The notes beneath the pieces are model-generated. The model had not been told where the DNA came from. It was given only the letters and a program-made list of their open reading frames with translations, and searched no databases. A DNA stretch of 64,000 nt, from the NCBI RefSeq assembly GCF_900452385.1, contig NZ_UGOA01000001.1:2365501-2429500 (forward strand), read 5' to 3'. The position numbers and the translations under genes are program-made. Positions 52,753-54,803 of the stretch are shown in pieces. Origin of the DNA: Legionella donaldsonii (GTDB taxonomy: Bacteria > Pseudomonadota > Gammaproteobacteria > Legionellales > Legionellaceae). Positions within the stretch are counted from its first letter, which is position 1. Every line of letters begins with the position of its first letter.

Positions 52753-53496
52753 CTAAATAACGATTTCATTCTTCGGAGCCGTTTCGGTAGTCAATAACCA
52801 TTGTATCTGCTGGTTAAGATCAATTGTAATTGCCGACCATTCTTCAATCTGCTTATCTTCATAAGCATTCTCTGTGGGAAAAAGTGTTTTGTGTCGGGCA
52901 ACAGCCGCATCTCGTGCTTGATGTAGCCAGGCAATTTGCGGGGAAAACAAATGCAGCATACCCTCTACCCATTGATCGAGAATTTTCCAATAAGGATCAG
53001 CTAAGGTCATTTTGAATTGTTTGATAAAACGCGAGATGTGTTTGGCATCGTACCAAATTTCATATGAAATCCAGCGATTAACCGTAAATAAACGAATAGG
53101 TTGGCCAAAACGATTCATTGCAATAGCAACTAGATGCGTCATAGGATTATCGATATTTTTATCCCAATCTGGCAAATCAGTCGGTTTTATCTGTTTTGGA
53201 ATATGTTTATAGCGTAAAAAACAATGGAAATGGCCGTGTTCATTACTCGCAAGATCTTCGCGATGACAGTGATAAAAATACTGCGCACCAGTATCATGAT
53301 CGATACGATCCCCTTTAGGATAATGATTCATTCGCACATGGCGACGTTTCTTTTCCAACGTGTAGTGGAGAATATTCTTGCCTTTCTTGGTAGTCATTTG
53401 CTGCTGTGCTTCAAGCACTTGCATCGCATAACGCAGATATCGCTCTTTGCTACCGTTTGTCAGAGAAGGCAACTTAAATTCAGCAATTGTTAGCAT
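52753..53496 (-). CDS. Unknown protein next to the (CxG) peptide gene
   Basis: The frame opens at a GTG at 53505; the ATG at 53496, with GGTG upstream, gives MLTIAEFKLPSL and 247 residues. I do not recognise the family with certainty (a DUF6969-like protein is possible). The middle carries clustered potential metal ligands: YFYHCHRED and NEHGHFHCFLRYKH. There is no signal peptide or membrane segment, so it should be cytoplasmic. It follows the (CxG)13 gene on the same strand across a hairpin. Its role could be to act on or with that peptide; this is inference. Confidence 0.65.
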   Translation of the reverse strand: MLTIAEFKLPSLTNGSKERYLRYAMQVLEAQQQMTTKKGKNILHYTLEKKRRHVRMNHYPKGDRIDHDTGAQYFYHCHREDLASNEHGHFHCFLRYKHIPKQIKPTDLPDWDKNIDNPMTHLVAIAMNRFGQPIRLFTVNRWISYEIWYDAKHISRFIKQFKMTLADPYWKILDQWVEGMLHLFSPQIAWLHQARDAAVARHKTLFPTENAYEDKQIEEWSAITIDLNQQIQWLLTTETAPKNEIVI

Positions 53497-53511
53497 AGAA
53501 TACACCGATAA

Positions 53512-53543
53512 TAAAGAGGTAGTAATTTCATACTACCTCTTTA
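53512..53543. terminator. Hairpin between the (CxG) gene and the next gene
   Basis: TAAAGAGGTAGTA (53512-53524) and TACTACCTCTTTA (53531-53543) form a 13-bp perfect stem with a 6-nt loop, starting 13 bases after the (CxG) stop on the minus strand. It may act as a partial terminator giving more peptide than downstream protein, or as an mRNA-stabilising hairpin. Confidence 0.7.
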
Positions 53544-53555
53544 TTTAACAAGCGA

Positions 53556-53786
53556 TTAACTACCAGAGCAACCGCCGCAACCACCGCAACCTTTACAACC
53601 GTTGCAGCCTTTGCAACCGTTACAACCTTTGCAGCCCTTGCAGCCAGTGCAGCCTTTGCAACCTTTACAGCCAGTGCAGGCAATTTGAGAACCAGCAGCT
53701 TGATTGTCTGCAAAAGCAACAGGAACTACAGCAGCAGTTGAAAGTGCAGATAACAGAGCAGCAACAGCTAATGATGACTTTTTCAT
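53556..53786 (-). CDS. Secreted (Cys-x-Gly)13 peptide
   Basis: This is a 76-residue precursor. The start ATG at 53786 has AAGGAAGG 6 nt before it. A clear signal peptide (MKKSSLAVAALLSALSTAAVVPVAFA) precedes DNQAAGSQIA, and then 13 consecutive Cys-x-Gly triplets fill the rest (CTG CKG CKG CTG CKG and so on, ending CSGS). The x residues are mostly Lys, Thr, Asn and Gly. All cysteines share one spacing, which would suit thiolate metal binding or a modified peptide. The frame is kept despite the 9-base low-complexity DNA. Function is unknown; I know no exact characterised family. Confidence 0.8.
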   Translation of the reverse strand: MKKSSLAVAALLSALSTAAVVPVAFADNQAAGSQIACTGCKGCKGCTGCKGCKGCNGCKGCNGCKGCGGCGGCSGS

Positions 53787-54119
53787 AGTGAGCCTTCCTT
53801 GCAAAATTAATAATTAAAACAAATTTAATACTAGCAAAACATTCTTACATCTTTTTACTAAATTAATAAAGACGTTATCTAAAATAATTTCTCACCTCCT
53901 GATTGATAGGTATCAACATGTTTTACAAAATATCAAATCGCTAATGACATTCTCAAATCATAGGGACAAGTTTACTTTTCACCATACAGTCAACAATATA
54001 ATTGGGAGTATAGATGAAGAAACGTTTTTTTTCATAGGTGGTATTTAGATAAATCTGGGGCACAAAACCTTAAACTGAGTCCCAACAAATTCAGGATCTT
54101 AAAGACAATAGGTTTTCAG
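53787..54119. promoter_or_regulatory. Upstream region of the (CxG) gene
   Basis: These 333 bp are AT-rich with no gene. TTGATAGGTATCAA (53903-53916) is a perfect 14-bp palindrome, a candidate operator. On the minus strand TGCTAGTAT near 53831-53839 looks like an extended -10 for the peptide gene. AGGAGGTGAG at 53890-53899 (minus strand) is a perfect Shine-Dalgarno with no ORF behind it. Confidence 0.45.
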
Positions 54120-54803
54120 CTAAAGCTGGCATTGTTGTGCCCAGACTCGCAGCATCGCGTTCCCGCCGGGTTGCAAATGATAAGCGACTTCTCGCACCTC
54201 TACCCCTAAATTATCCTGTTGTAAGCCGAGAAGGACAGGTCCTAAAAAGGGAGATGGGTGGCCGTAACGATCAATCAGAGGAAAAATTCTCACCTCTTTG
54301 GCTACACGTGCCAGTTCTTTTATCACTTGCAGGTGAAAATCCACATCTTGATCATCAAGATCAGCAAATAAATAATGAGAACTTAAAGCAAATTCAAAGG
54401 AAAAATCAGCAAATGGCAAGGCATAATTCCCTATTCCTATATAACGCTTAGCCATCTTACCTTTTTCATAATCACCAAAAAACTGAGCCATTCCTTCGCG
54501 CCTTTTTGCAAATAAGGCCTCAGGATTACCATAGCGACTAAAATCAAATTTCTCTTGATCCCTTACCACTCTACTGACCATATCAGCAAAAATTAAAGTA
54601 ACTTTGCTGTATAAAGTATCCTTATCCAAATTAAACAGTGGATCACAACTCACTATTTGCTGTGTATGGGCAGTTAATTCCGCGTTCACTGCACTTGGAC
54701 CACAACCATATTCCAACAGGCGAGTTTCCATATCTGCTTTTGATAAATCAAACATTTCCTGGTATTCATCAGCATGATGGCCCCACAGCACAAGTTTACG
54801 CAT
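54120..54803 (-). CDS. SAM-dependent methyltransferase
   Basis: The frame opens at 54854, but AAGGAAGGGG precedes ATGs at 54809 and 54803; I take 54803 (MRKLVLWGHHADEYQEMFDLS, 227 residues) because the purine tract is then at normal distance. LLEYGCGPSAVNAEL is SAM motif I, followed by IVSCDPLF. The rest (ALPFADFSFEFALSSHYLF) fits a class I methyltransferase. Substrate is unknown. It lies upstream of the (CxG) peptide gene on the same strand, 333 bp away; a link with the peptide is possible but not shown. Confidence 0.75.
   Translation of the reverse strand: MRKLVLWGHHADEYQEMFDLSKADMETRLLEYGCGPSAVNAELTAHTQQIVSCDPLFNLDKDTLYSKVTLIFADMVSRVVRDQEKFDFSRYGNPEALFAKRREGMAQFFGDYEKGKMAKRYIGIGNYALPFADFSFEFALSSHYLFADLDDQDVDFHLQVIKELARVAKEVRIFPLIDRYGHPSPFLGPVLLGLQQDNLGVEVREVAYHLQPGGNAMLRVWAQQCQL

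Follow-up and report, generated by a model that had tools for sequence, protein, structure and literature searches.

Recurrent pairing of a DUF6969 protein with an exported Cys-repeat peptide in Legionella donaldsonii and many other bacteria suggests an overlooked way to make exported Cys peptides

We analysed a stretch of 64,000 nucleotides from Legionella donaldsonii (contig NZ_UGOA01000001.1, positions 2,365,501 to 2,429,500; hereafter the window), in which two adjoining genes of the minus strand encode a Cys-rich secreted peptide and a protein of the DUF6969 family. The peptide gene (53556..53786, minus strand), delimited from its own sequence and from homologues, starts with an ATG at 53786, stops at 53556 and encodes 76 residues plus a stop codon. 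Residues 1-26 (53709..53786, minus strand) form a Sec-type signal peptide, MKKSSLAVAALLSALSTAAVVPVAFA, which we called by eye and with our own hydrophobicity rule rather than with a trained predictor, and which probably doubles as a leader, judging from its conservation relative to TolC signal peptides. Residues 37-75 (53562..53678, minus strand) consist of 13 tandem Cys-x-Gly (CxG) units and form a core that varies when loci are compared. An earlier note on this DNA had described a secreted 76-residue precursor with a Sec signal and 13 CxG units, and this description is borne out.

The partner gene (52753..53496, minus strand) encodes 247 residues from an ATG at 53496, or 250 from an alternative GTG at 53505, with no signal seen. 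The earlier note had regarded its product as unrecognised; it is in fact a clear member of the named Pfam family DUF6969 (PF22308), to which no function has been assigned. It scores 254.9 bits where the cut-off is 27, and the match covers positions 4-201 of the 201 in the profile. Based on this match and on residue conservation, we consider it a probable cytosolic metalloprotein. The arrangement recalls bufferins and captophorins, in which (PMC12452194; PMC13097082) a Cys-rich precursor carries a Sec signal and an adjacent gene encodes a dedicated cytosolic partner. The window pair shares these features. It differs in that bufferins and captophorins employ MNIO with a DUF2063-type partner and precursors of the BufA1, BufA2 or oxazolin/EGKCG kind, whereas here the partner is DUF6969 and the Cys motifs are others.

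DUF6969 is present in 69 of 140 genomes of the Legionellaceae, in 18 of 33 genera, and in 72 of 143 genomes at the level of the order. From the family and order surveys we fetched 78 loci, 76 of them unique, leaving out the second fragment in genome G026; of the unique ones, four adjoin a contig edge and 72 were readable. A Sec-type Cys peptide is encoded 5' of DUF6969 at 63 of these 72, according to a rule that is blind to the leader sequence. A leader pattern passes all 63 together with five loci whose cores hold few Cys residues (L167, L172, L196, L200 and L202), giving 68 of 72; as this set of 68 was chosen with the pattern, its fixed leader positions are conserved by construction, whereas those of the 63 are not.

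Counted by genome, a peptide match occurs in 70 members of the family, 63 of which also have DUF6969. The match in G061 is a bufferin, the true leader peptide of that genome sitting in L167, and in G014 and G022 it is a bufferin next to MNIO only. Five genomes have the leader peptide and no DUF6969 match (G012, G049, G089, G099 and G107). In two of them the core is poor, with no Cys in G012 (a genome 88% complete) and three in G049; since three-Cys cores also adjoin DUF6969, such decay is weak evidence. Conversely, in the six DUF6969 genomes with no peptide match the locus either encodes a divergent peptide (G025, G026, G031, G037 and G041) or meets a contig edge (G015, a genome that is unreadable and omitted from the genome table). 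The genes flanking the pair vary by lineage within the family. By our own reading, a DsbD-like gene lies close to 8 of the 78 loci.

Beyond the family, DUF6969 was found in 30 of 369 genomes sampled from the class and 20 of 398 sampled from the phylum (the window genome is counted in both), and it is encoded in at least 563 of the 592 matched stretches of a species-level collection of named genomes. We examined 49 loci outside the family over up to 6 kb per side (the sampled set), 29 control stretches obtained out of 31 chosen in 13 of the sampled genomes, and the best 80 loci among the collection matches (the named set); the two outside sets overlap once, L111 and L250 being the same stretch. 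With a signal rule of our own, a Sec protein carrying a repeated Cys tripeptide was detected at 31 of the 49 sampled loci and at none of the 29 controls (p 2e-9), and in 28 of the 31 the nearest such protein is encoded on the same strand as DUF6969. The named set gave 57 of 80. These counts exclude proteins overlapping the DUF6969 frame; with overlap allowed they become 34/49, 0/29 and 59/80 for sampled, control and named loci. Reading by eye, which excluded L236 and L248, adds nine sampled loci (L229, L237, L239, L243, L245, L246, L264, L268 and L260, the peptides of L237 and L239 having two Cys each) and brings the total to 40 of 49, with the controls scored by rule only. In both outside sets pooled, 56 of 88 Cys-repeat proteins lie within 300 bp of DUF6969 and 72 of 88 on its strand. 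The conservation of the pairing across genera, proposed by the earlier note as a check, is thus strongly upheld.

The outside repeats are of several types (NPCAAK, GGNPCAPSAR, PCGL, PCGLD, GCCGCC, CAAGC and KCGAK), and peptide type tracks the DUF6969 tree: over 99 rows it changes 6 times, compared with 23.2 times after shuffling, and none of 200 shuffles came as low. The rows comprise the loci at which a protein was detected and 12 more from the Legionellaceae, and one of those labelled "other" (L136) reflects a wrong frame. A peptide also adjoins a confirmed DUF6969 in Sinorhizobium meliloti 1021 (on pSymB), in Ciceribacter thiooxidans and on a Burkholderia glumae plasmid. The Sinorhizobium leader (L330, 4586-4957) and the gammaproteobacterial PCGL leaders (L237-L246, L268) have in common a motif at the end of the signal, A-x-D-H-x-x-H-x-x-P, which may be a recognition site. 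Several PCGL peptide genes sit after a YeeE-like transporter gene (checked with Pfam for L268), and on the B. glumae plasmid (L332) the pair adjoins genes annotated for arsenosugar biosynthesis.

We found that the leader is well conserved and the core variable. Between pairs of loci whose DUF6969 identity is 0.65-0.75 or 0.75-0.85, median leader identity is 0.73 and 0.85, compared with 0.43 and 0.52 for TolC signal peptides in equal bins of TolC identity (29 TolC used). Across the 68 leader-bearing loci, in contrast, the number of tandem CxG units in the core varies between 0 and 15 and that of Cys between 3 and 15, with a longest CxG run of at least 5 in 50 of the 68; within the family it may consist of CxG runs, CCGAAAPK, ACAAAP or just three Cys. 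The reading frame is kept while the longest CxG run spans 0-15, in agreement with the earlier claim that it has stayed intact despite an expandable repeat. A conserved leader, a variable core and a dedicated partner gene, which are among the marks of ribosomally synthesised and post-translationally modified peptides, are all found here.

The two genes are separated by a hairpin (53510..53545, minus strand) that had been put at 13 bp; it is real and recurs in relatives, and its stem measures 15 bp. In the window it folds at -22.3 kcal/mol (z -6.3), with no equally stable structure among 200 shuffles. Within 70 nt past the peptide stop, 37 of the 68 loci and 0 of 1360 shuffles have a stem with 10 or more Watson-Crick pairs; lowering the threshold to 8 pairs gives 41 of 68 and 1.0% of shuffles, and 27 of the 68 family loci have no such stem. 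The letters of the hairpin vary by lineage, so it is the structure and not the sequence that is conserved. An intrinsic terminator, the candidate we had considered, is absent at this position from the output of a terminator scan; we therefore infer the role of the hairpin, which may be that of an attenuator or a processing site.

In an alignment of 207 near full-length DUF6969 sequences, numbered after the window protein, H76, H78, E86, G88, H89, H91, H121 and N140 are invariant, and Y75 (206/207), R195 (205/207) and H87 (202/207) nearly so. Most of them fall in the motif Y-H-x-H ... E-H-G-H-x-H (residues 75-91; 53224..53274, minus strand), a candidate metal site. The earlier note had proposed clustered HxH and Cys ligands: the His residues, and also the Glu, are indeed fixed, whereas the Cys are ruled out as conserved ligands: of the 207 sequences, 95 have Ala and 83 have Cys at position 77, and at position 92 Thr and Cys occur 84 times each. 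Among the 80 named DUF6969 proteins, 79 lack a signal-like start and one has it. With five His, one Glu and one Asn invariant, the family would most simply be a metal-dependent enzyme. We also considered it as a divergent MNIO, for which a profile comparison gave no support (hhalign probability 0.1 against 10 MNIO sequences), and as a divergent DUF2063, where comparison with alignments made here showed no similarity.

The link between DUF6969 and exported Cys-repeat peptides is well supported by the pairing and its breadth, by the contrast of leader and core, by the hairpin and by the fit of peptide type to the DUF6969 tree; the chemistry and the cargo are inferred. Considering all the above results, we think it slightly more probable than not that the pair constitutes a bufferin-like two-gene system in which a cytosolic, metal-dependent DUF6969 reads the leader of its client peptide and matures the peptide before export. 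Such an enzyme would most simply explain the leader conservation, the core variability, the hairpin and the invariant residues. The conserved signal peptide would be recognised as a leader by DUF6969 in the cytosol, DUF6969 would act on the Cys repeats ahead of Sec export, and the hairpin would permit far more copies of the peptide than of its partner. With its many thiols, the exported product might then serve as a sink or as a carrier of soft metal ions or sulfane sulfur, and the data fit an exported peptide that is modified or binds metal. More tentatively, and with somewhat less confidence than doubt, we propose that DUF6969 founds a new class of metal-dependent maturation enzymes in Pseudomonadota, not related to MNIO, that would use Sec signals as leaders and modify tandem Cys repeats in small peptides and cytochrome tails.

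Among the alternatives, DUF6969 may instead be a dedicated chaperone or loader, binding the leader and the thiols, keeping the Cys reduced or loading metal, and passing the peptide to Sec with no covalent change. The same genetic facts, among them the pairing and the conserved leader, speak for it too; a peptide so rich in thiols could pick up metal in the cytosol on its way out, and the fixed His and Glu residues could form a site of metal transfer. However, the invariant Glu and Asn and the nearly invariant Arg (R195) next to five His look more catalytic than simple binding would require, and we regard this explanation as unlikely.

The genes around DUF6969 outside the family bear on a second alternative. 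SoxA/TsdA-like cytochromes occur at 17 of 49 sampled loci and 0 of 29 controls (p 1e-4) and at 56 of 80 named loci, YeeE-type Sulf_transp proteins at 16 of 49 against 0 of 29 (p 2e-4) and 16 of 80, and rhodaneses at 18 of 49 against 1 of 29 (p 5e-4) and 0 of 80. Because the models behind these counts derive from groups recurring in the very loci that were counted, part of the contrast is inherent in the design, and only groups whose label fits the printed representative were counted. Single-sequence searches gave Sulf_transp at 13 and rhodanese at 18 of the 49, and neither in the controls. Like the DUF6969 peptides, some of the adjoining cytochromes carry Cys repeats: long NPC-repeat blocks are borne by cytochromes near DUF6969 in L085, L104, L116 and L127, the last from the free-living Denitromonas halophila (checked with Pfam for L085), and by P460-type proteins in L087, L091 and L125 (checked for L087). 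These neighbours lean towards sulfane sulfur as much as towards copper. Exported Cys repeats could accordingly carry or quench the sulfur of persulfide or thiosulfate, with DUF6969 serving such a system, an idea favoured by the enrichment and by the repeats on the cytochromes themselves. The enrichment is, on the other hand, partly a product of the models, rhodanese and Sulf_transp reach 0 and 16 of the 80 named loci, and none of these families figures among the 16 neighbour groups that are largest in the Legionellaceae, which makes a sulfane-sulfur system improbable. None of the SoxA/TsdA cytochromes, YeeE transporters or rhodaneses is among the genes read beside the window pair.

A third possibility is that the peptide is a bufferin modified by an MNIO encoded elsewhere in the genome, with DUF6969 as an accessory. 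The same genome does have, at L002 (near 2575602), a gene for a BufA2-like precursor and, after it, genes for MNIO and a DUF2063-type partner, and this sole MNIO match lies about 157 kb from the pair; the window peptide matches the BufA2 model weakly, and MNIO lies close to DUF6969 in a few other bacteria. However, the match of 19.9 bits is far below the cut-off of 60 and leaves the peptide outside the BufA2 model, MNIO was found inside the stretch at 2 of 49 sampled loci (with one query), and 22 of the 69 genomes with DUF6969, including 9 with a completeness of 97% or higher, yielded no MNIO match. Neither MNIO nor DUF2063-type genes stand beside the window pair, which is not the gene content of a bufferin cluster. 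As enzyme, partner and precursor model all differ, we describe the DUF6969 pair as bufferin-like in its working and do not class it as a member, and a distant MNIO is very unlikely to be the modifying enzyme. Least probable of all is a plain secreted metallothionein-like peptide with DUF6969 as a regulator or an unrelated gene next door: thiols by themselves bind soft metals and three genomes keep a Cys-rich peptide with no DUF6969, but the pair persists in differing neighbourhoods and across classes, peptide type tracks the partner tree, and the Pfam and NCBIfam results hold no metallothionein model matching the peptide.

Several observations count against DUF6969 as a leader-reading maturation enzyme. 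Four readable family loci (L183, L191, L194 and L195) hold second DUF6969 copies with no peptide, the first pair being elsewhere in the genome; three of these (L183, L191 and L194) lie beside a gene that we take to be hemF, and another client or a link to haem is possible for such copies. A Cys-rich leader peptide persists in the absence of DUF6969 in G089, G099 and G107 (L210-L212), and some peptides paired with DUF6969 retain two or three Cys only. By rule, 18 of 49 sampled and 23 of 80 named loci show no Cys-repeat Sec protein; by eye, several of the 18 show one and some do not, and in Azospirillum lipoferum DUF6969 was confirmed and no peptide was found nearby. The label of enzyme stands on invariant polar residues: no homologue has a known function, and a search of solved structures gave nothing convincing (best E 0.17). 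The leader comparison uses one control protein, DUF6969 and TolC identities differ as yardsticks, and the DUF6969 tree has long branches. Finally, Fur, CueR and Zur boxes 5' of the 68 peptides score no better than shuffles. Separately, we noted that at L210 the genes flanking related pairs remain in place although DUF6969 is missing, and that, of 36 DUF6969 members, no two matched the same other Pfam family.

Upstream of the peptide gene (53793..53836, minus strand) lie a ribosome-binding-site-like AAGGAAGG (53793-53800) and a -10-like TGCTAGTAT (53828-53836). Related words occur in relatives (CAAGGAAG at 47 and TTAGCAAA at 43 of the 68 loci), and a -10-like TGCTAATAT/TGCTAGTAT element with an AAGGAAG site is recurrent 5' of the peptides in the window and its relatives. 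Outside the family, secreted FGE-sulfatase-like proteins, possibly a second maturation factor, are encoded at 5 of 49 sampled and 24 of 80 named loci (e.g. L124, 72-1031, and L153, 1633-2583), and ECF sigma factors at 5 and 18; the enrichment of either in the sample is not significant (p 0.09). AhpD-like proteins (5/49 and 20/80) and thioredoxins (7/49 and 8/80) also occur. The earlier note had included an upstream methyltransferase. This protein scores under the cut-offs of the Pfam methyltransferase models and stands beside the pair only in the window genome and two close ones (L011 and L013) among 161 loci, surveyed with 1.5-kb flanks for family loci L003-L081, and we rejected it as a component. 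Nor did a search for a phage origin of the locus return a match. Of the exported metal-buffering or modified-peptide system that had been suggested, the conserved pair and the recurrent hairpin stand, the methyltransferase and the partner Cys fall away, and sulfur is indicated as much as metals.

In the openly licensed PMC literature we found no description of a link between DUF6969 and exported Cys-repeat proteins. If our interpretation is true, exported Cys-repeat peptides would have at least one route that does not involve MNIO, and this in hundreds of species, given the 563 or more stretches that encode DUF6969; a Pfam family so far lacking a function would acquire one. It would also explain why SoxA/TsdA-type and P460 cytochromes have tails of NPC repeats, and would offer a leader-directed handle to put modified or metal-loaded Cys on exported proteins. 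Altogether, the recurrence of this pairing in many bacteria suggests an overlooked way to make exported Cys peptides.
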